A stretch of DNA of 64,000 nt from Rhodobium gokarnense (GTDB lineage Bacteria; Pseudomonadota; Alphaproteobacteria; Rhizobiales; Rhodobiaceae). Shown piece by piece: positions 7,491 through 26,970 of this stretch; the stretch's first letter is position 1, and every line of letters begins with the position of its first letter. A program made the position numbers and the translations under genes. The stretch is from assembly GCF_025961475.1 (NCBI RefSeq), contig NZ_JAOQNS010000014.1:1-64000 (forward strand), given 5' to 3'. The notes below the pieces were generated by a model that did no database searches, was not told where the DNA came from, and worked only from the letters and a program-made list of their open reading frames with translations.

Positions 7491-7651
7491 ATTTCCACCC
7501 CTAAGGCCTCTGCGGCCGCGACCGCCTCGCGAATAAAGTCGTCCCTGATCTTCGGCTTTAGCCGCGCCCACCTTCGCTCGGCGCGAGCCGGATCGTTCTC
7601 CCGCGCCCATGTTCGCCAGATGGCGAAGGCTGCGGACTCAATGCGGGTCAT
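7487..7651 (-). CDS. Small phage protein, 54 residues
   Basis: Starts MTRIESAAFAIWRTWARE at ATG 7651; its stop overlaps the next start as ATGA. It is helical, Arg/Ala-rich and without membrane segments. It is supported by translational coupling and by the sense-strand amino-acid pattern. No family was recognised. Confidence 0.55.
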   Translation of the reverse strand: MTRIESAAFAIWRTWARENDPARAERRWARLKPKIRDDFIREAVAAAEALGVEI

Positions 7652-7716
7652 GGCCTGCCTTCGTTTGCTGGATGCTGAAGGCCTTCGGCATCCAGCCAAA
7701 GGCCTCCGATAATCAT

Positions 7717-8088
7717 CTAATCAGCGACCCGGCGGGCTTGCTCAGTGAACGGGTTGTATTCCTGGTTGTTCGTAATGAGGTAGGCGCCGGGCTCTACCAC
7801 CTGTTCCTCATGGGGATCTCCAGCCGACTGTTTCAGCACCGCCGGTTTGCCGAGAATGGCGTAAAGCATCTTCATACCGGCATCCTGGAACTCCATCACA
7901 GTCGCGCCGCCGGCTTCCAGGACGTGGTGATGACCGCTTTCCGAATGGCCAACGATGAATCCATCTGGACCGGGCCCGACGAGTGCGAACCCGTCCGTGT
8001 CGACGGTCCCTTCGTCGATCCGGATGAAATTGACCTCGCCATGGGCGTTGGTCAGGCGGCAAGCGGTAACGTTGTCGAAAGCAGACAT
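7717..8088 (-). CDS. Hypothetical phage protein, 123 residues
   Basis: Starts MSAFDNVTACRLTNAHGEVN at ATG 8088, directly downstream of the DUF6745 repeat-protein gene (4-base gap). It is predicted to be a compact beta-rich protein with a glycine-rich middle (LVGPGPDGFIVGHSESG). The C-terminus ends near NNQEYNPFTEQARRVAD. It may work with the repeat protein, based only on adjacency. Confidence 0.6.
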   Translation of the reverse strand: MSAFDNVTACRLTNAHGEVNFIRIDEGTVDTDGFALVGPGPDGFIVGHSESGHHHVLEAGGATVMEFQDAGMKMLYAILGKPAVLKQSAGDPHEEQVVEPGAYLITNNQEYNPFTEQARRVAD

Positions 8089-9682: not shown

Positions 9683-10284
9683 CAGACGCGTTCCTTCGTT
9701 GGGAAGATGATGTCACCGCGCTGGTAGGGGCGAGTCCAATCGCCGGCGGCACTCACGCGGACCCACTTCTCGCCGTCCCAAACGAACGGAAGGTGCCCTT
9801 CGACGAACCGGATGGCGAAGTCGCGATTTTCTTCGGCGGCGTCGATCTGGTCGGCGACAAGGCGGGCGATGGCTTTCGTTGCATCGAAAGCCTGTCCAGA
9901 TCCGATATCGGCAAAAATTACTCTGGATACAGGGCCGTAGCAGCCGCCCTGGAGGATGCGGTCGACACACTTCTGCTCGGTGTCGAGGATCCGGTCGACG
10001 GCAAGTGCCTCATCGATGATCGGAGAGCCTTCTAAATCCTGGATAAAAGCGAAAAACGGTCGAAGTCCTGCGGCCTTGGCATCCGGTGTTTCTTCGGCCT
10101 TGCATCGTGCCTCGGGGCTTTGATCCTGCGACAGGCGTCGGTGGTGGCTGGCAAGGTCGTCGCACAAGCGGTTGGTCTTGGCTGTTTCCTCGGCAATGGC
10201 CGCGCAGAGTCGATACCGAACGCCCTCGATGATGCGGTCGCAATGCGTGCCGGCCGTTCTTCGTGTGCGAGTTGTCATCTGCAT
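9682..10284 (-). CDS. Hypothetical protein, first gene of left early operon
   Basis: A 200-residue protein and the first gene after the leftward promoter. It starts at ATG 10284 behind GGAGTG; a second ATG lies two codons in. The N-terminal half is helical with scattered Cys (RIIEGVRYRLCAAIAEETAK). The C-terminal half has a beta-rich segment (LPFVWDGEKWVRVSAAGDWT). The gene's stop shares a base with the next start. No known family was recognised. Confidence 0.65.
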   Translation of the reverse strand: MQMTTRTRRTAGTHCDRIIEGVRYRLCAAIAEETAKTNRLCDDLASHHRRLSQDQSPEARCKAEETPDAKAAGLRPFFAFIQDLEGSPIIDEALAVDRILDTEQKCVDRILQGGCYGPVSRVIFADIGSGQAFDATKAIARLVADQIDAAEENRDFAIRFVEGHLPFVWDGEKWVRVSAAGDWTRPYQRGDIIFPTKERV

Positions 10285-10299
10285 GGCTCACTCCGTTGA

Positions 10300-10312
10300 A
10301 TACCCAATGTAT
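10300..10312. promoter_or_regulatory. Operator ATAC-N5-GTAT (left, site 1)
   Basis: The perfect site ATAC-CCAAT-GTAT covers the -10 element of the leftward early promoter. It has the same half-sites and the same 5-base spacer as three other sites flanking the repressor gene. It is probably bound by the CI-type and/or Cro-like protein. Confidence 0.75.
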
Positions 10313-10336
10313 TGCTCATTGCCGAGCGTATGTCAA
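10308..10336 (-). promoter_or_regulatory. Leftward early promoter (PL-like)
   Basis: On the minus strand a consensus TTGACA (plus 10331-10336) lies 17 bases from AATACA (plus 10308-10313). The first gene of the left operon starts about 25 bases downstream. Both boxes overlap ATAC-N5-GTAT operators. The rightward promoter has the same architecture. Confidence 0.7.
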
Positions 10337-10348
10337 TACGAAGGGTAT
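10336..10348. promoter_or_regulatory. Operator ATAC-N5-GTAT (left, site 2)
   Basis: The perfect site ATAC-GAAGG-GTAT touches the -35 box of the leftward promoter. Centre-to-centre distance to site 1 is 36 bp, nearly the 35 bp seen between the two right-hand sites. Confidence 0.75.
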
Positions 10349-10393
10349 GATTTTTTTAGTGGGCTGTGAAGATGTTTCTCGCGCGCGTTCACA

Positions 10394-10438
10394 CTGAGAA
10401 GGAGGGGTAGGGGCTATAGGCCCCTACCCCCCTCTCAG
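10394..10438. terminator. Strong GC hairpin downstream of the repressor gene
   Basis: A perfect 11-bp stem (10404-10414 with 10420-10430, loop TATAG) is extended by outer pairing CTGAG/CTCAG. It lies between the repressor gene end and the leftward promoter, so it could terminate repressor transcription. No T-run follows on either strand, so the terminator role is uncertain. The G-rich arm could also fold as a quadruplex. Confidence 0.45.
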
Positions 10439-10527
10439 AGTTTAGTTATACGTCCTTGTCTCTGAGCCGCGCGCAATACTATTTTTCTGAGCCGAGCGCG
10501 TAGCAAGACGCGGGCCAACTCAGATCT

Positions 10528-10610
10528 TGTGACATCTGTGACAATTGTTCGAAAAAGGCCAAAAAAAACAATGACTCGGTGATGTCACACCGCATGTCAC
10601 ATATGTCACA
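10528..10610. repeat. Inverted TGTCACA arrays around an A/T-rich centre
   Basis: Two TGTGACA copies (10528-10534 and 10537-10543, 9 bp apart) face three TGTCACA copies (10583-10589, 10595-10601, 10604-10610; steps of 12 and 9 bp). Between them is an A-rich segment bounded by ATTGTT (10544-10549) and AACAAT (10567-10572). The same heptamer with the same 9 and 12 bp steps recurs at 20183-20219. Candidate iterons of a replication origin, or an array for a dedicated DNA-binding protein. The stretch 10285-10612 otherwise holds only promoter, operators and hairpin, plus a near-repeat of TCTGAGCCG at 10461 and 10486. Confidence 0.75.
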
Positions 10611-10612
10611 AC

Positions 10613-11338
10613 TCAAAAAACGGCGGGCTGCACGAAGGTGATCACCAGCGCGGCGATTTGCACTTCGACCTCGTCGTTGGGCGAGGCATTGATGGGCCCG
10701 ATGTCGATCGGCTTGTGGCGCGGGTTAGACGACCGCGGCGCCAGCATGATCCGTCCGTTTCTGATCGAAATCTCTTTCAGGGTCCGCTCGCGAAAGCTGC
10801 CGCCGTTTCGGAATTGTTCCACGACCACCGGCAGACCGGACCTTGGCGACATTCCGGTTTTCGCCCAAGGCACGGCAACGACATAGCCGCCATCGCGAAC
10901 AAATTCGTCGAAGGAGTCGCCGACAACCTGATAGGCGACATAGTCGGCCCGATCGAATCTTGGGTCCGGGACGACGGGGATCGTCCCGAGAATGTCGTCC
11001 TGGATGTCATCGACATGGATCCACGACGTGGCCTCGGCTTTCCCGACGATGGGCGCCAAAATCACGCCCTTTCCTGAGTAGGGTGCGCCGGCCGTGTCGA
11101 GAGGCGCCGGCGGTTCCGCCTCATCGCCGCGCTTCGGCCCTTCGCCTGTCAGGAGCCACTTCAGGCTGATTCGGAAAAACCGGGCATATCGAATCGCGGC
11201 GTCGGCGGTCATGCCCCGGGTGCCGTTTTCGTGCGACACATAGGTCACCTCACGCACGCCCATTGCCTTCGCGGCTTCCGACGCATGCGCATACCCGGCC
11301 TCTACGCGCGCTGCCCTCAATCGTTGCCATCTGCTCAT
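10613..11338 (-). CDS. CI/LexA-type prophage repressor (XRE HTH plus S24 domain)
   Basis: A 241-residue repressor. Residues about 1-65 form a Cro/CI helix-turn-helix ending WLLTGEGPKRG. An Ala-Gly pair at residues 83-84 is a plausible self-cleavage site. The S24 domain has the catalytic Ser at 142 (VVGDSFDEFVRDGG) and a candidate Lys at 188 (RTLKEI), 46 residues apart, similar to lambda CI. It should keep the lysogenic state and be inactivated by RecA filament-stimulated self-cleavage. It is divergent from the Cro-like gene, with two operators between them. The Met after GDS found in many relatives is Phe here. Confidence 0.88.
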   Translation of the reverse strand: MSRWQRLRAARVEAGYAHASEAAKAMGVREVTYVSHENGTRGMTADAAIRYARFFRISLKWLLTGEGPKRGDEAEPPAPLDTAGAPYSGKGVILAPIVGKAEATSWIHVDDIQDDILGTIPVVPDPRFDRADYVAYQVVGDSFDEFVRDGGYVVAVPWAKTGMSPRSGLPVVVEQFRNGGSFRERTLKEISIRNGRIMLAPRSSNPRHKPIDIGPINASPNDEVEVQIAALVITFVQPAVF

Positions 11339-11362
11339 AGGCCACCCATCGCAAATACGCGG

Positions 11363-11375
11363 ATACTTCGGGTAT
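11363..11375. promoter_or_regulatory. Operator ATAC-N5-GTAT (right, site 1)
   Basis: The perfect site ATAC-TTCGG-GTAT lies between the divergent repressor and Cro-like genes and touches the -35 box of the rightward promoter. Confidence 0.78.
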
Positions 11376-11402
11376 TGACGAGAGGCGATCGAATGGAATA
11401 CA
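11375..11402 (+). promoter_or_regulatory. Rightward early promoter (PR-like)
   Basis: TTGACG (11375-11380) lies 16 bases from AATACA (11397-11402), mirroring the leftward promoter. It drives the Cro-like gene at 11437 and the right early operon. Both boxes are overlapped by operators. Confidence 0.7.
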
Positions 11403-11410
11403 AAAGGTAT
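11398..11410. promoter_or_regulatory. Operator ATAC-N5-GTAT (right, site 2)
   Basis: The perfect site ATAC-AAAAG-GTAT overlaps the -10 box of the rightward promoter, 35 bp centre to centre from site 1. Confidence 0.78.
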
Positions 11411-11436
11411 GATGAATCACATTGAGGTCGTGATCG

Positions 11437-11664
11437 ATGGATGGTGCGGGGATTCGAGAGCTCCGGGAGAGCTTCGGGATGTCTCAGGCGCAGTTTGCAA
11501 AACTGCTGGGTGTTCGGCAGCCGACCGTCTGCCGGCTCGAAAGAGGGCAGACGGTGGCGGGGGCGATGTTGACGCTTTTGGAAAGTCTGAAGGCCGGACA
11601 CATCACACCTGAAATGCTGAAAGACAAGCAAAAGACTACCGAGAAGGAGGGCTCAGATGCGTGA
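11437..11664 (+). CDS. Cro-like XRE regulator
   Basis: A 75-residue single-domain helix-turn-helix protein (MSQAQFAKLLGVRQPTVCRL). It is the first gene of the right early operon and divergent from the CI-type repressor, the standard place for Cro. It probably competes for the ATAC-N5-GTAT operators. The stop overlaps the next gene start by 8 bases. Confidence 0.85.
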   Translation: MDGAGIRELRESFGMSQAQFAKLLGVRQPTVCRLERGQTVAGAMLTLLESLKAGHITPEMLKDKQKTTEKEGSDA

Positions 11665-14216: not shown

Positions 14217-14271
14217 AGTCGATCCGGATGGCTTCGTCGCCTGGCATCGCAACAGACTGAAAAAGAAATGA
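14038..14271 (+). CDS. Small early protein, 77 residues
   Basis: Starts MAGEKIRLQEMIDACLERAG at ATG 14038, inside the 3' end of the RuvC-like ORF in a different frame. The helical, well-formed sequence and the ATGA junction with the methyltransferase start support it as a real gene over the overlapping tail. No known domain was recognised. Confidence 0.65.
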   Translation: MAGEKIRLQEMIDACLERAGHLRGVQAALQKMGAIREPSTYAMRQAEVFDAIVKALRMIEVDPDGFVAWHRNRLKKK

Positions 14272-17045
14272 GCGGCCTGATCATCGATCTGTTCGCCGGC
14301 GGCGGCGGGGCCTCGCTTGGCATCGAAATGGCGACGGGGCGTTCTCCGGATATCGCCATCAACCACGATCACGCGGCGATCCGCATGCACGCGGCGAACC
14401 ATCCGGAGACGCTGCACCTGGAGCGCAGCGTTTGGAAATCGGACCCGTGGGAATACGTCCGCAACAGGGAAGTCGACCTCGTCTGGGCCTCGCCGGATTG
14501 CTTCGTTGCCGGAACAATGATCCTGACCGATCAGGGTTACCGACCCATCGAAAGCATCGTCGAAGGCGATTGTGTCCTCACGCACGCGGGAAGGTACCGT
14601 CGCGTCTACGGGACGATGCGCGCAAAGAAGTCGGTGCACAGCGTCGATATCCAAGGTTCGCCCACCTTGATGGTGAGCGGCGAACACCCCTTCTTGGCAC
14701 GACCGATAGAGAATGTCTGGGACAACAGACGGCGAAACTACCGCCGGACGCTACTCGAGGCGCGGTGGGTGGCGGCAACCAATTTGCGGATCGGCAACGC
14801 GGCGATGAATGCCGCCGGTGGCGACAGGGATTTCTGCGCCACTCCTTGCGAGTTCGGAGCTCTGCCGATCCCCCAAGTCGGCGGCAGGGGGATCGACGTG
14901 GATGAGCGGCTGATGTGGCTAGTTGGCCGATATGTCGGCGACGGGTGGTCGCGCATTAGAGGCGGCCATGCGGAACTGGTCATAATCTGCGCGAAGGACG
15001 AGGCCGACGAACTCGCCGAACGTCTCGACGCTTGGCCCAGGTTAGGGATGCGCGCCGGGCATGGCGAACTCGCTTGGCATCGTCGTGAGGTCGAGACGGC
15101 CGTGCAATTTAGCACGAACCATCGCGGCTTGGTGGAGTGGATCAGGGGCCAGTTCGGCCATGGTGGTTACCATAAGCACTTCCCGGCCTGGTGCATGTCC
15201 GCACCTGTAGAGCTGCGTCGCGCTCTGCTTGCCGGCTATGTGTCGGCCGATGGCAGCCAGCTTATGATTTCCGGCAACAGCGTCACCGAGACGATCACAA
15301 TCTCCAAGGCGTTGGCTCTATCGACCAAAGCCATTGCGGAGAGCCTCGGCTTTACCGCCACCGTCTCGAACCCACGTGCCAACTCCTCTACGATCGAAGG
15401 ACGCGATGTGCAAGCGAAGCGCACCTATCTCGTCAGATGGAGGGAGACGCGGAAGAGGCTGCAGACGGTCCGCGAGGGCATCCATAACTGGTCTCGGGTT
15501 CAAAGGGTCGGAGAAGCCTCAGAGCCCGTCGAAGTCTTCAATATCGCGGTCGAGGAGGACGAGTCTTACGTCGCGGACGGGATCGTCGTCCACAATTGCA
15601 AGCACCACTCCAAGGCCAAGGGATCGCGGCCGGTCAAGCGCAACATTCGCGATCTCGCCTGGGTGGTCAAATGGTGGGCGCAGTCGGTGCGCCCGAAGGT
15701 GATCATCCTCGAAAATGTCGAGGAATTCCGCGATTGGGGGCCGGTGGTGCCGGACGCATCCGGCCGGTTCTTCCCGTGTCCGGACCGCAAGGGCGAGACC
15801 TTCAAGCGGTTCGTCGGCGAGCTGCGGCGCCTCGGCTACCGGGTCGACTGGCGCGAGCTGGTTGCGGCCGACTACGGCGCGCCGACGATCCGCAAAAGGC
15901 TCTACATGATCGCCCGGCGCGACGGGCTGCCGATCGCCTGGCCGAAGCCGACGCACGGGCGGGCCGACGATATCGACGTCATCGCCGGGCGAAAGCTGCC
16001 TTGGCGCAGCGCGGCGGAAATCATCGACTGGTCGCTGCCGTGCCCGTCGATCTTCGACACGGCGGCGGAGATCATGGCGAAGTTCGGCCTTCGCGCGGTG
16101 CGCCCGCTCCAGCCGACGACGCTTCGGCGCGTTGCGCGGGGTGTCGGCAAATACGTGATCGAGGCCGCGGAACCGTTCATCTTGCCGATCACGCATGCCG
16201 GTTCGGATCGCGTGGAGCCGATCGGCGAACCGCTTCGCACGACGACGGCCGCACATCGCGGCGAACGGGCGCTTGTGATGCCCTTCGTCTCCCGGCAATT
16301 CGGCGCCAGCGTCGGGCACGGCGCCAGGGAACCGCTGGCGACCGTCACGGCCGGCGGCGGCGGCAAGTCGGCCCTCATTGCGCCGACGCTCGTCCAGACG
16401 GGATATGGCGAGCGCCCGGGCCAGGCGCCGCGGGTGCCCGGCCTCGACAAGCCGCTCGGCACGGTCGTCGCCGGCGGGCAGAAACACGCGCTTGTCGCGG
16501 CCTTCATGGCGCAGCACAACACGGGCGTCGTCGGACGGACGGCCGATGCGCCGCTGTCGACGGTGACCGCGACGGGCGCGCAACAGGCGATCGTGGCGGC
16601 GCACCTGTCGCATTTCTACGGGTCGAACACGGCGGGCGGCGAAGGCGACCTGCGGCAGCCGGCGCGGACCGTCACGGCCGAAGGCAATCACGCGTCCCTC
16701 GTCACGGCGTTCCTGTCGACCTATTACGGCACCGACCAGGCGCCGCAGCTCGGCGCGCCGCTGCCGACCGTGACGACGGTCGGCCGGCATAGCCTGGTGA
16801 CGGTGACGATCGACGGAGCCACCTACGTCCTCATCGACATCGGCATGCGCATGCTGACGCCGCGCGAGCTGTTCCGCGCGCAGGGCTTTCCCGACAGCTA
16901 CCAAATCGAGGCGGATGCCGAGGGCGTGCCGTTTTCCAAGACGGTGCAGGTCGAGAAGTGCGGCAACTCGGTCTGTCCGCCCGTCGCCGCGGCGATCGTC
17001 GCGGAGAACCTGCCCTGGCTGGCGCAGCGGACGGAGGCGGCATGA
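14268..17045 (+). CDS. C5-cytosine DNA methyltransferase with in-frame intein
   Basis: A 925-residue precursor. Residues 1-77 hold the SAM-binding start (IIDLFAGGGGASLG) and lead to WASPD. An intein occupies residues 78-443. The enzyme resumes at Cys 444 (CKHHSKAKG), then IILENVEEF (motif VI) and a C-terminal GNSVCPPVAAAI motif. The catalytic cysteine is the first residue after the intein, so the mature enzyme (about 559 residues) can work only after splicing. The target-recognition region has about six degenerate repeats of roughly 30 residues (PLxTVTA...). It is probably used to protect phage DNA. The gene overlaps both neighbours as ATGA. Confidence 0.9.
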   Translation: MSGLIIDLFAGGGGASLGIEMATGRSPDIAINHDHAAIRMHAANHPETLHLERSVWKSDPWEYVRNREVDLVWASPDCFVAGTMILTDQGYRPIESIVEGDCVLTHAGRYRRVYGTMRAKKSVHSVDIQGSPTLMVSGEHPFLARPIENVWDNRRRNYRRTLLEARWVAATNLRIGNAAMNAAGGDRDFCATPCEFGALPIPQVGGRGIDVDERLMWLVGRYVGDGWSRIRGGHAELVIICAKDEADELAERLDAWPRLGMRAGHGELAWHRREVETAVQFSTNHRGLVEWIRGQFGHGGYHKHFPAWCMSAPVELRRALLAGYVSADGSQLMISGNSVTETITISKALALSTKAIAESLGFTATVSNPRANSSTIEGRDVQAKRTYLVRWRETRKRLQTVREGIHNWSRVQRVGEASEPVEVFNIAVEEDESYVADGIVVHNCKHHSKAKGSRPVKRNIRDLAWVVKWWAQSVRPKVIILENVEEFRDWGPVVPDASGRFFPCPDRKGETFKRFVGELRRLGYRVDWRELVAADYGAPTIRKRLYMIARRDGLPIAWPKPTHGRADDIDVIAGRKLPWRSAAEIIDWSLPCPSIFDTAAEIMAKFGLRAVRPLQPTTLRRVARGVGKYVIEAAEPFILPITHAGSDRVEPIGEPLRTTTAAHRGERALVMPFVSRQFGASVGHGAREPLATVTAGGGGKSALIAPTLVQTGYGERPGQAPRVPGLDKPLGTVVAGGQKHALVAAFMAQHNTGVVGRTADAPLSTVTATGAQQAIVAAHLSHFYGSNTAGGEGDLRQPARTVTAEGNHASLVTAFLSTYYGTDQAPQLGAPLPTVTTVGRHSLVTVTIDGATYVLIDIGMRMLTPRELFRAQGFPDSYQIEADAEGVPFSKTVQVEKCGNSVCPPVAAAIVAENLPWLAQRTEAA
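14499..15596 (+). other. Intein with LAGLIDADG homing endonuclease (366 residues)
   Basis: The first residue is Cys (block A CFVAGTMILTDQGYRPI). Block B is VSGEHPFL. The endonuclease motifs are LVGRYVGDGW and LLAGYVSADG, both with their acidic residue. Block F is NIAVEEDESYVADG and the C-terminus is VVHN before Cys+1. All residues needed for class 1 splicing are present. The insertion lies immediately before the catalytic cysteine of the host methyltransferase. Confidence 0.93.
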
Positions 17046-22148: not shown

Positions 22149-22229
22149 TTTGTGAGTCACGTTTTTGCCGAATCGTCGAAAAGCGAGATGATGCCGGGGC
22201 CCCGAATGATCTGGTGATATCCGGCGTGT

Positions 22230-22306
22230 CGTGGGGTGGAGCAGTCCGGTAGCTCGTCAGGCTCATAACCTGGAGGTCGAGGGTTCAAATCCCTCCCCCG
22301 CTACCA
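22230..22306 (+). tRNA. tRNA-Met (CAT), initiator type, phage-encoded
   Basis: A 77-nt tRNA with all arms and an encoded CCA. The anticodon CAT is at 22264-22266. Initiator hallmarks are the unpaired first acceptor position (C1 with T72) and A11-T24 in the D stem. The anticodon stem has A29-T41, then two G-C pairs, where the classic initiator has three G-C pairs. It lies inside the prophage immediately before the 1-kb structured region. Confidence 0.93.
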
Positions 22307-23330
22307 AGTCAGGGCAACGCCCGTGGGTTTGCGCCAAGCTAGCAAGCCGCCTTATTCCCTCGTATGGGCTCAGCGAGCTACAGAGGGCACATAGTGGTCA
22401 GGCAGACGCTCCGGGGCGCCGATCCTGTCTGCTGAAGTAGAAAGAGCCCCGGAAGTATTTCTGCCAAGGGCTGGTTTCCCAGCCAACGCAAAGCAAGGAT
22501 ATGGGCGATAGCCGGCGGCCTTGCGTTGTAGAACATGAGCACCGGCGAGGACACGAGTAATAGACGCCTCCTCGGCTTGGTCGCGACAGGTGGTCTAAGG
22601 TTCGACGCGCACTACTGTTATGGAAGGCAGCGAGCCTGGATCCAGAGGGTTAGAGACCCTGTGTTCATGCAATCCCGCGTAGCTGGTGCGCCAGCGGAGG
22701 CGCCATCGAGTCGTGAAACCTGGCGCCTCCGCAAAAGTAGTGGCAAACGATGCTGTCGCAGAAGCGCGTTTGCTGATATGATACTGCGATGCTTCACGGT
22801 TGCAGCAGGGCCGTGACTAAGACAAGGCTGGTCGCCCAAGCGACCGGTTTAGCCGCTGCCAAATTCGCCCATCAGGGCAACGGAATCGATGCTGCGGCGT
22901 GGAAAGCAGACACGTGTCGGCCCGTAGAGCCCGGCGTTGAAATAGCTGGGAACGGGTGACGACGCGCTGGACGACATGCGCATAGATCCAGTGAGCCGGG
23001 GTAGCGTCCGGTCAGCATCGACACTAATCGGCGCGTGTCATCATTGCCCGAAAATCTTGACCCACTCAGGAGAACGGCTTGGCCGTAGCCATTGTGGCGT
23101 AGGGTATTGGGGTGCGCGCCGACCCTATCGACGCTGTGACACGGTGATTTCTGCTTGCCGTAGGGCGTGGTCGGAAGTCTTACCACGGACCGCATTGCGG
23201 GGGTTCAGCAGGCCCCGCCAGCGTCGACAAATACCCGCCAAGGTCTCCAATTCAGTTTGGAGATGACACCGCCCCACGACGCGTTTGGTTTCCTAGGCCT
23301 TCGTGCGTCGGGGTGGCGGCTCTTCAGGAG
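22307..23330 (+). ncRNA. Candidate giant structured RNA (GOLLD/ROOL-like)
   Basis: About 1 kb follows the tRNA without any protein-like reading frame, yet it is dense in perfect helices: GGGC/GCCC (22312-22322), GGCTGG/CCAGCC (22469-22484), AACGC..AAGG with CCTTGCGTT (22485-22527), an 11-bp stem (22694-22704 with 22722-22732), GCAAACG/CGTTTGC (22743-22773), GGTCGC/GCGACC (22830-22845), a two-step hairpin (22921-22956), GCGGGG/CCCCGC (23197-23218), TCTCCAA/TTGGAGA (23244-23263) and a terminal stem (23269-23319). The 11-mer TCAGGGCAACG occurs twice. Large phage RNAs such as GOLLD and ROOL often sit beside tRNAs. Exact family, boundaries and expression are not established. Confidence 0.62.
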
Positions 23331-23335
23331 GCTCT

Positions 23336-23566
23336 ATGACATTTCTCGAATTCAAAGCATGGTTCGACGGCTTCTGCGAGGGCATTGAAGGTGCGCCGAA
23401 TACTGAGCAGTGGAAGCGGATCTGCGAGAAGTTCGGCGAAGTCCACGAACCGCTGCCGGGGCCTTGCCCTCAACCTTATCGCTTTGTGCCTGGGGACATG
23501 TCCCCGTTTGGGCCGCCGTACGAAATCACCTGCTCACTGCCCGCGTTCAATCTTGATCTGAACTGA
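23336..23566 (+). CDS. Small phage protein preceding terminase, 76 residues
   Basis: Starts MTFLEFKAWFDGFCEGIEGA at ATG 23336 behind GGAGG, directly after the structured RNA. The aromatic/acidic N-terminus (FKAWFDGF) recurs in small proteins before terminase genes of alphaproteobacterial phages. The role is unknown. The following 149 bases hold a two-level hairpin (23598-23646) and no gene. Confidence 0.65.
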   Translation: MTFLEFKAWFDGFCEGIEGAPNTEQWKRICEKFGEVHEPLPGPCPQPYRFVPGDMSPFGPPYEITCSLPAFNLDLN

Positions 23567-23715: not shown

Positions 23716-24096
23716 ATGCCGCGTGGTGGAACCAGACAGGGTGCCGGACGAAAGCCAGGCAAGGTGAGCGCGGCCAAGCGCCAACTATCGGAAAAGGCAC
23801 GCGGTCTCGCCGATGGCGCCCTGAAGACGCTGAACGATATCCACAAGGATCGAAAAGCGCCTCACAGCGCGCGGGTGTCTGCCGCGACGGCAATCCTGGA
23901 TCGCGCCTATGGCCGCCCCCCGCAATCGCTGGAGCACACCGGCAAGGACGGCGCACCCCTCGCATTCGTGGATCTGACCAAAGCAACGGATGACCAGCTC
24001 TCGGCACTCGAATCTTTCTTCGGCCCGCTTGCCGGATCCGGCGACGATGCTGAAGGCGATCCGACAGGAGAGGGAAAGGCGCCGACTCGAGGCTGA
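23716..24096 (+). CDS. Terminase small-subunit-like protein
   Basis: A 126-residue protein. The basic N-terminus (MPRGGTRQGAGRKPGKVSAA) is typical of small-subunit-like and DUF5681 phage proteins. A helical domain (ARVSAATAILDRAYGRPPQS) and an acidic tail follow. It lies immediately upstream of, and overlaps, the large terminase gene. It would recognise the packaging site. Confidence 0.7.
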   Translation: MPRGGTRQGAGRKPGKVSAAKRQLSEKARGLADGALKTLNDIHKDRKAPHSARVSAATAILDRAYGRPPQSLEHTGKDGAPLAFVDLTKATDDQLSALESFFGPLAGSGDDAEGDPTGEGKAPTRG

Positions 24097-25525
24097 GCGT
24101 GAGCGCATTGCCAAGGATGCGGAGCGCATCCGGGCAAGATGCGCGACGCTCGCGGGTTTCGTCCGGGAGGCGTGGCATGTCCTCCACCCGGCCATCGATT
24201 ACGTCCATGGCTGGCACATCGACGCGATATGCGACCATCTCGAGGCGGTCACCAGGGGGGGCATCACCCGGCTGCTGATCAATGTGCCGCCCGGCACGAT
24301 GAAGTCGTTGCTGGTGTCAACGTTCTGGCCGGCATGGGAGTGGACGAAAGAGCCGTCGCGATCGTATCTGACGACCTCCTATTCGGAGGGCTATGCGAAG
24401 CGCGACGCGCGCCGTATGCGCGATCTGGTGGAATCTGAGTGGTATCAGTCGCTATGGGGTGACCGGGTTACCCTGTCCCGCAAGGCGGAAATCAGTTTCG
24501 AGAACACGGCCCGTGGGTATCGTGAGGGCAAGGCGTTTGCGTCCCTGACTGGTGGCCGGGCGGATCGGCTGATCATCGACGATCCGCACTCGACCGAAAC
24601 AGCAGAGAGCCCGGCCGAACGGGAGACGACGGCCCGGATTTTCCGGGAGTCGGTGCCGTCGCGGCTGAATGATCCGGCGCGGTCGGCGATCATCATCATC
24701 ATGCAGCGGCTGCATGAGGCCGATGTTTCCGGGCAGGCGATATCGCTGAAGCTTGGATATGAGCATCTGATGCTGCCGATGGAGTTCGAGCCGGAACGCC
24801 GGTGTCGGACGTCGATCGGGTTTCAGGATCCGCGACAGTCAAGCGGGGAGCTTCTGTTCCCCGAAAGGTTCTCGCGTGAGGTCGTTGAGCGCGACAAGGT
24901 GCCGATGGGCTCCTACGCCGTCGCAGGCCAGTTTCAGCAGCGCCCGGTGCCGCGCGAGGGAGGCATGTTCAAGCGGTCCTGGTTCGATGGTCAGTTCATC
25001 GGCGCGCCCCCGGCCGGCACCAGATGGGTTAGGCATTGGGACCTTGCCGCGACGAAGAAGAAGACGGCGGCGCGCACGGCCGGGGTGAAGATCGGCAGGG
25101 CCCCGGATGGGTCTTTCATCGTCGGCCATGCGGTGACGACGCAGGATGAAGGCAACGCTGTCCGCAAGTTGATCAAGGCGACGGCCGAGGTGGACGGAAA
25201 ATCTCCGCTGATCAGCCTTCCGCAGGATCCTGGTCAGGCCGGCAAGGTGCAGGCCAAGGACATGGTTGCGATGCTCGCCGGCTGGACGGTCAAGGCCGAG
25301 CCGGAAACCGGCGACAAGGTGACGAGGGCTGAGCCGTTCGCGGCCCAGTGCGAGGCCGGGAACGTCTACATCGTCAGGGGCGAGTGGAACGAATCCTATC
25401 TTGACGAGCTGTGCCTGTTTCCGGGCGGGCAGTTCAAGGATCAGGTTGACGCGTCGTCGGGCGCATTCGGAAAACTTTTGGACAAGCGGGGCGGCGGGTC
25501 GGTGTCGTTGGGCGGATTTTACTGA
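24047..25525 (+). CDS. Terminase large subunit
   Basis: A 492-residue packaging motor starting at ATG 24047, overlapping the previous gene by 50 bases; an ORF extension to 23990 is shadow-like. The ATPase has a deviant Walker A NVPPGTMKS (79-87) and Walker B RLIIDDP (174-180). The C-terminal RNase H-type nuclease region begins around RHWDLAATKK, giving the first acidic residue. It cuts concatemeric DNA and drives it into the prohead. Confidence 0.93.
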   Translation: MLKAIRQERERRRLEAERERIAKDAERIRARCATLAGFVREAWHVLHPAIDYVHGWHIDAICDHLEAVTRGGITRLLINVPPGTMKSLLVSTFWPAWEWTKEPSRSYLTTSYSEGYAKRDARRMRDLVESEWYQSLWGDRVTLSRKAEISFENTARGYREGKAFASLTGGRADRLIIDDPHSTETAESPAERETTARIFRESVPSRLNDPARSAIIIIMQRLHEADVSGQAISLKLGYEHLMLPMEFEPERRCRTSIGFQDPRQSSGELLFPERFSREVVERDKVPMGSYAVAGQFQQRPVPREGGMFKRSWFDGQFIGAPPAGTRWVRHWDLAATKKKTAARTAGVKIGRAPDGSFIVGHAVTTQDEGNAVRKLIKATAEVDGKSPLISLPQDPGQAGKVQAKDMVAMLAGWTVKAEPETGDKVTRAEPFAAQCEAGNVYIVRGEWNESYLDELCLFPGGQFKDQVDASSGAFGKLLDKRGGGSVSLGGFY

Positions 25526-26970
25526 TGACCGAAGACTTTGACATCACCTCGCATCATCCGTCCTATGACGCCTATGCCCCGGATTGGGAGAGGATGCGCG
25601 ACGCCGTAGAGGGCGAGCGCTGCATCAAGGACAAAGGCAAGGCGTATCTGCCGATGAAGTCCGGCATGGTCGCCATGACTGACCTTCAGGCGCGCGATCG
25701 AGCCTATGAGGCATACAAGGCGAGAGCGGAGTTTCCGGAGATCGTCGGACCGACGGTCCGCGGTGCCCTTGGGCTGATTCATTCGAAGGAGTCGACGATC
25801 GAGCTTCCGTCCGGCCTGAAGTCGCTCGAGGAAAAGGCGACGCGGGACGGCCTGACGCTGCAGACCCTGCACCAGAGGGTGACGGCAGAGCTTCTGCGGC
25901 TCGGTCGCTATGGCCTGATGCCTGGCGTGACCGATGCCGGCGAATTCTACATCGCCGGCTACACGGCGGAGAGCGCGATTAACTGGGACGCGCCGACCGG
26001 GACGCTGGAGTATCTGGTCCTTGACGAGAGCGCTGAAGAGCGCGACGTCGTCACGAACAAGTGGTCAAAGGTCTGTCGCTATCTGGAGTGCCAGCGGACG
26101 GCGGAGGCCGGGTTTGAAACCCGCAAGTGGATCGAAAAAGGCAGCGCGGTCGACGGCAAGAAGAAGTTCGAAGTCGAGGCCGATTGGTCTCAAGCGGGAA
26201 CGCGGCGTCGCGATCGCCTCCCCTTCCTGCCCTTCACCTTCATCGATACGATGGACCTGACGCCGGAGCCGGACGATATCCCGCTCTATGGCCTCGCCAA
26301 TCTGGCGTTCCGGGCCTATCGCCTCGACGCCGATTACATGACGGCGATGCATTGGACCAGCGAGCCGCAGCCGTGGATCAGCGGGTGCAGTAGGGATAAC
26401 GCTCCGACAGCAATCGGGGCGTCGAATCTTTGGGTGTTTGAGGACACCGGCGCCAAGGCGGACTTCCTCGAGTTCACAGGTCCTGGCGTCGAAGCGCAGC
26501 GCAAGGCGATCACGGACACGCTCGAGCGCGCGATCATGTTCGGCGCTCAGCTGTTTGCCGACAACAAGCGTACGGCGGAAAGCGGCGAAGCGCTGCGGCT
26601 GCGCCTCGGTAGCCAGACCAGCACGCTCAAGATGGTCTCGGTTCAATCGGCGGCCGGGCTTGAACGGTGCCTGAAGGACGCGGCCCTATGGGCCGGCGCC
26701 AACCCGGACGAAGTGCATGTCGAGCCGAACCTCGACTTCGTCGACCACGAATTGAGCCCGCAGGAAATCCTCGCCATCGTGTCGGCGTGGCAGTCCGGCG
26801 CCTATTCCAAGGTGACGCTGTTCGAGAATCTTCAGCGCGGCGGGGTCATCGATCCCGGGCGGACGCTCGAGGAGGAGCAGCAGTTGATTGATGACGAGGG
26901 GCCGGCGCTTGGTGGGGTGACCGCGCCACCTGAGCCGACACGGACCAATGCTGAGGAGGACGCAGCATGA
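25525..26970 (+). CDS. Portal protein (DUF4055-type)
   Basis: A 481-residue protein whose start shares a base with the terminase stop. It matches the DUF4055 portal pattern: an N-terminal segment ending MKSGMVAMTDLQARDRAYEA, a central PLYGLANLAFRAYRLDAD and a long helix around AITDTLERAIMFGAQLF. The Glu/Pro-rich C-terminus is variable in the family. Twelve copies would form the DNA channel at one capsid vertex. Confidence 0.85.
   Translation: MTEDFDITSHHPSYDAYAPDWERMRDAVEGERCIKDKGKAYLPMKSGMVAMTDLQARDRAYEAYKARAEFPEIVGPTVRGALGLIHSKESTIELPSGLKSLEEKATRDGLTLQTLHQRVTAELLRLGRYGLMPGVTDAGEFYIAGYTAESAINWDAPTGTLEYLVLDESAEERDVVTNKWSKVCRYLECQRTAEAGFETRKWIEKGSAVDGKKKFEVEADWSQAGTRRRDRLPFLPFTFIDTMDLTPEPDDIPLYGLANLAFRAYRLDADYMTAMHWTSEPQPWISGCSRDNAPTAIGASNLWVFEDTGAKADFLEFTGPGVEAQRKAITDTLERAIMFGAQLFADNKRTAESGEALRLRLGSQTSTLKMVSVQSAAGLERCLKDAALWAGANPDEVHVEPNLDFVDHELSPQEILAIVSAWQSGAYSKVTLFENLQRGGVIDPGRTLEEEQQLIDDEGPALGGVTAPPEPTRTNAEEDAA

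Follow-up and report, generated by a model that had tools for sequence, protein, structure and literature searches.

A 44-nt module at positions 22308–22351, immediately behind a phage initiator-type tRNA in a Rhodobium gokarnense prophage, is almost certainly, judging by sequence comparison, an orphan homologue of a small RNA associated with DUF3800 genes. By the same comparison it stands out as the best-established structured RNA of the interval 22307–23335, which starts right behind the tRNA-Met and runs up to the ribosome-binding site for a 76-aa protein, with packaging genes downstream. DUF3800 has a predicted RNase H fold and a reported association with putative non-coding RNAs (PMC10910872). 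Below, the window is the whole 64,000-nt stretch of DNA that was analysed, R1 is a covariance model of the two hairpins of the module, and R2 is its extended version. The relevant features are as follows.

22230–22306, forward strand: phage initiator-type tRNA-Met (CAU), from ARAGORN, Rfam and tRNA comparison
22308–22351, forward strand: probable DUF3800-associated small RNA module (models R1/R2), orphan, without terminator, from R2, covariation and the match in genome G155
22312–22322, forward strand: hairpin 1, GGGC AAC GCCC (22312–22315 with 22319–22322), from covariation
22326–22348, forward strand: hairpin 2, GGTTTGC / GCAAGCC with loop GCCAAGCTA (22326–22332 with 22342–22348), from covariation
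22352–23335, forward strand: remaining non-coding stretch, structure unproven, from homology, codon and protein-family searches
22694–22732, forward strand: perfect 12-bp hairpin (22694–22705 with 22721–22732), from an exact sequence check
23326–23331, forward strand: AGGAGG ribosome-binding site of the next gene, read in the sequence
23336–23566, forward strand: small phage protein of 76 aa, ATG at 23336, with an N-terminus conserved in other phages
23990–25525, forward strand: terminase large subunit, from Pfam and PHROGs
25525–26970: portal, after the terminase large subunit

The prophage corresponds to IMG/VR UViG_2929249989_000002 (57,856 bp), which is identical across the interval. Its tRNA-Met has U72 opposite C1 and is initiator-like; a chromosomal initiator-type tRNA, whose C1 is opposite A72, shares 70 of 77 bases with it. 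The anticodon loops of the phage and host tRNAs are the same, so escape of the phage tRNA from an anticodon nuclease is not indicated. Elsewhere in the prophage, a C5 DNA methylase gene at 14268–17045 of the window matches Hint, intein-splicing and homing-endonuclease profiles, that is, the phage methylase carries an intein.

The interval 22307–23335 is non-coding. All 150-nt windows across 22201–23401 had low codon-usage scores (best frame −0.26 to −0.01; the reference, the 64-kb window, has a median of +0.22 and a 5th percentile of −0.077). Six-frame translations of the interval matched no protein family in PHROGs or Pfam, and tblastn with its three longest ORFs gave no notable match. Together, these results rule out a hidden protein-coding gene and bear out the claim of an earlier note that no protein-like frame is present beside the phage tRNA, which ARAGORN also detects. 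The same note held that genes normally overlap in this genome; this does not hold throughout, as the window contains further low-coding runs, and genes here do not always abut. One such run of low codon usage spans 10201–11551. We also considered, and rejected, an RNA that goes with either the small protein downstream or the terminase, since homologous loci mostly have ORFs at that place.

Homologues of the module came from outside phages. A blastn search with the entire kilobase returned nothing useful from 50,697 phage records or 72,556 plasmids, and 397 genomes of the order yielded one above-noise match, covering 38 nt at the 5′ end and occurring twice in G155 (E 1e-6). The 37-nt block 22312–22348 retains 33 identical bases in G155, and both copies there have the same arrangement: a −10-like sequence, the block, an intrinsic terminator and then a DUF3800 gene on the opposite strand. 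An integrase-like ORF and a small AlpA-like DNA-binding protein, both recognized by reading the sequence and not by a profile, lie near these copies. With R1 a third lineage came to light, G634 (57.3 bits), which is arranged as in G155. The G634 DUF3800 protein, used as a query, led to plasmids of Sinorhizobium, Rhizobium, Mesorhizobium and Pararhizobium, where R1 found the RNA convergent to the DUF3800 gene in four of ten loci examined. R2 further added G083, in a genome search that also returned weak matches of 23–28 bits; S. medicae, S. fredii and Rhizobium CB3171, in which an intact RNA accompanies a broken or remnant DUF3800 gene; and Agrobacterium CFBP6626 and Rhizobium SSA_523, in which AbiL genes adjoin and DUF3800 is absent. 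The R2 RNA copies on Agrobacterium and Rhizobium plasmids that lie by such AbiL-type abortive-infection genes, without DUF3800, are at 2509–2550 of locus L360 and 2509–2550 of L361.

Most non-phage copies thus have their own terminator and a convergent DUF3800 gene, intact or broken; these genes are about 810 nt long and lie 7–32 nt from the RNA. No R1/R2 RNA was present at 30 other DUF3800 loci from the order, and the RNA class therefore seems tied to one DUF3800 branch. The genomes searched are samples, and the 142 taken from the taxonomic class yielded no protein closely related to the DUF3800 protein of G634. On Rhizobium plasmids with a sister branch of DUF3800 (loci L355–L358), another two-hairpin sequence followed by a terminator faces the gene. 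R2 does not match this sequence, which may represent a further DUF3800-associated RNA class.

The case for RNA rests on how the paired positions change among these copies. R2 scores 58.7 bits (E 2e-13) on the window module with the window sequence itself in the model, but the G155 copies were found by blastn and those in G634 and the plasmids by R1, independently of R2. One of the four pairs of hairpin 1 is changed on both sides, from G-C to A-U, as are two pairs of hairpin 2, which also contains one invariant U-G pair (columns 21/40). Standard pairs make up 99.2% of the pair cells in a model-fitted alignment of 12 distinct sequences. The three pairs altered on both sides account for 18 cells, and at most one cell remains when the partners are slid by 1–3 columns. 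A MAFFT alignment (A2) of seven distinct sequences gave the same covariation picture. A DNA hairpin, moreover, would not explain the invariant U-G pair. From these results together we conclude that 22308–22351 belongs to a real RNA class.

DUF3800-associated RNA motifs, present in Rfam as DUF3800-I, DUF3800-VIII (RF03075) and DUF3800-IX, were reportedly first described by Weinberg et al. in 2017, and we know of no function for such RNAs. They are small structured RNAs linked to DUF3800, and the homologues of our module are convergent to DUF3800 genes. However, the module differs from DUF3800-VIII in sequence and fold, the copy in the window follows a phage tRNA and has no DUF3800 partner, and none of the DUF3800 models of Rfam 15 matches the copies scanned, namely the window copy (E up to 10) and those in G155.

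Among phages, IMG/VR was scanned with a degenerate pattern of the R2 core. Of the 19 contigs returned, only two have a convincing R2 RNA, our prophage and the 117.6-kb contig L384; these are the only two phage copies known. The remaining pattern matches (L168–L170, L338–L349 and L377–L393 except L384) were discarded, being mostly inside ORFs and having no convincing fold. The L384 copy scores 43.1 bits with R2 and ends 10 nt before a tRNA-Gln, and the window copy begins 2 nt behind the CCA of the initiator tRNA. No DUF3800 gene was found in the phage of L384, in the prophage or in its host genome. Neither phage copy is directly followed by an intrinsic terminator. A promoter search limited to the sigma-70 type found no consensus promoter in the phage region.

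A second instance comes from contigs L058 and L059, which encode a terminase with 65% identity to the one in the prophage. Here Rfam DUF3800-VIII lies directly behind a tRNA-Met (44.1 bits, cut-off 40.2), and no DUF3800 gene was found. The two contigs may count as one case, as they share the same tRNA and the same RNA and L059 is a fragment. In these sequences, then, two DUF3800-associated RNA classes share one location, right after an initiator-type tRNA of a phage, with the protein absent.

Several other stretches behind phage tRNAs came to our attention. In Caulobacter phage CcrSC, the roughly 348 nt that separate a tRNA-fMet from the tRNA after it (L178, 2575–2922), with a tmRNA just upstream, have a strong fold and no Rfam match; CcrBL9 (L214) has a stretch in the same place, and the folding z-scores for the two phages are −5.6 and −4.5. 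A candidate RNA of about 290 nt lies behind a tRNA-Met of phage IMGVR_UViG_3300034159_000051 (L184, about 7588–7890); CTATGAGGC/GCCTCATAG closes it, a terminator-like hairpin comes next, and Rfam does not match it. Komagataeibacter phage phiKX1 (L177, 265–600) has about 330 nt without an annotated gene behind a tRNA-Met, with a terminator-like hairpin at the end.

What, then, are the 980 nt that follow the module in the window? Searches of phages, plasmids, the 397 genomes of the order and 2.6 Mb of collected loci yielded no homologue of 22352–23335. Weak blast matches in G183, G392 and others, with E of about 0.001 per genome over 397 genomes, amount to chance, and the one in G183 overlaps ORFs. 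We infer that this stretch is untranslated spacer or scaffold with structure unproven.

The earlier note had instead proposed that the whole interval is a giant structured RNA, possibly a divergent GOLLD or ROOL. The structured RNA is real, but the covariation-backed structure is confined to 44 nt, and since the other 980 nt have no homologue, "giant" is unsupported. Membership in either class did not survive the search with Rfam models: the GOLLD and ROOL covariance models have no match in the interval at the gathering threshold or at permissive E-values up to 5, and in an Rfam scan of the region only the tRNA matches. There is a likeness of setting, in that the interval is a non-coding phage region adjoining a tRNA-Met (ending at 22306), and a GOLLD member, env-38, is also downstream of a Met-tRNA (PMC12286853). 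Folding energy does not single the region out. Its minimum free energy of −451 kcal/mol corresponds to z = −3.3 (100 dinucleotide shuffles), overlapping with 13 same-length control segments of the window (mean −1.6, sd 1.6, two at −3.5 and −4.5), with its own reverse strand (−3.1) and with a genuine tmRNA (−2.5). The stretch 22352–23335 alone gave −5.3, from 30 shuffles only. Such z-scores neither prove nor exclude a large RNA.

Individual elements read in the same way. The 11-bp stem proposed for 22694–22704 and 22722–22732 is exact and extends to 12 bp, a length reached in none of 60 shuffles, but stems of 12, 13 and 17 bp occur in other 1-kb segments of the window. The repeated 11-mer TCAGGGCAACG does occur twice, with the second copy at 22872 rather than 22873, but at chance level: 15% of shuffles contain such a pair, as do 32 of 62 segments of the window. 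The palindrome placed at about 22912 is present and starts at 22909. A new giant ornate RNA resembling GOLLD/ROOL, with the whole kilobase as one perhaps multimeric fold and the module as its 5′ domain, would account for the position of about 1 kb of non-coding sequence behind a tRNA-Met, for the z-scores of −3.3 to −5.3 and for the rare 12-bp hairpin. Given that Rfam has no match, that the z-score is within the control range and that 22352–23335 has no homologue and hence no covariation, we regard such an RNA as improbable.

Two further explanations concern the module itself. It might be a cis-acting leader, an antiterminator or processing signal of the late operon, with the 980 nt as plain 5′ untranslated sequence. 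Its place at the head of an operon running into terminase and portal, its two successive hairpins and the missing terminator in both phage copies would suit this role. Non-phage copies, however, have an intrinsic terminator within tens of bases and a convergent gene, a misfit for an antiterminator, and a leader seems to us somewhat less probable still than a giant RNA. Alternatively, a DUF3800 cassette could have inserted behind the tRNA, the RNA being kept and the gene decaying into the 980 nt. The size is right for a gene of about 810 nt lying 7–32 nt from the RNA, and S. medicae and S. fredii do have broken DUF3800 genes beside intact RNA. Yet broken copies still score 204 bits (S. medicae) and 23.7 bits with the DUF3800 profile, whereas the region scores −3.4 bits, below shuffles, and has no six-frame Pfam match. 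This reading is already disfavoured, and we give it the least credence of all.

The alternative that we prefer, tentatively, is that the orphan RNA serves the phage in trans. The module and the tRNA would be co-transcribed as the first part of the late operon. Processing of the tRNA 3′ end could create the 5′ end of the module, given that the RNA begins 2 nt after CCA and that no sigma-70 consensus promoter was found. The freed RNA might then act as decoy or antidote by binding DUF3800 nucleases that resident plasmids or competing elements encode, and the phage initiator tRNA might replace a depleted host tRNA, so that the late operon would open with a joint counter-defence. One published proposal sees phage tRNAs as an answer to defences that deplete tRNAs (PMC10264068), and an initiator-type tRNA could likewise replace a nuclease-depleted one; in that work, however, the anticodon loops are changed, whereas here the loop is that of the host and the neighbour is a DUF3800-type RNA. 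An antidote or decoy fits better than a guide that needs its protein, because on several rhizobial plasmids the RNA has survived its gene, and phages have the RNA by itself. The target would be hypothetical, as this host has no known DUF3800 gene.

Taken as one statement, an orphan DUF3800-type RNA behind the tRNA with the decoy or antidote mechanism included is conceivable but falls clearly short of probable. The decoy or antidote action by itself we consider rather doubtful from the sequences at hand. A wider version, in which phages carry orphan RNAs of several DUF3800 classes by their tRNAs as decoys or antidotes against the DUF3800 nucleases of plasmids and defence islands and the 980 nt here would be an RNA body of a new kind, is unlikely.

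Even so, the RNA without its protein lies by phage tRNAs twice in this class and again, as DUF3800-VIII, behind the tRNA-Met of related phages. The RNA thus seems to be maintained independently of the protein, as an antidote or decoy would be, which provides a concrete lead. Moreover, a covarying DUF3800-associated RNA class is now defined, and its lineages on Sinorhizobium plasmids make the class testable.
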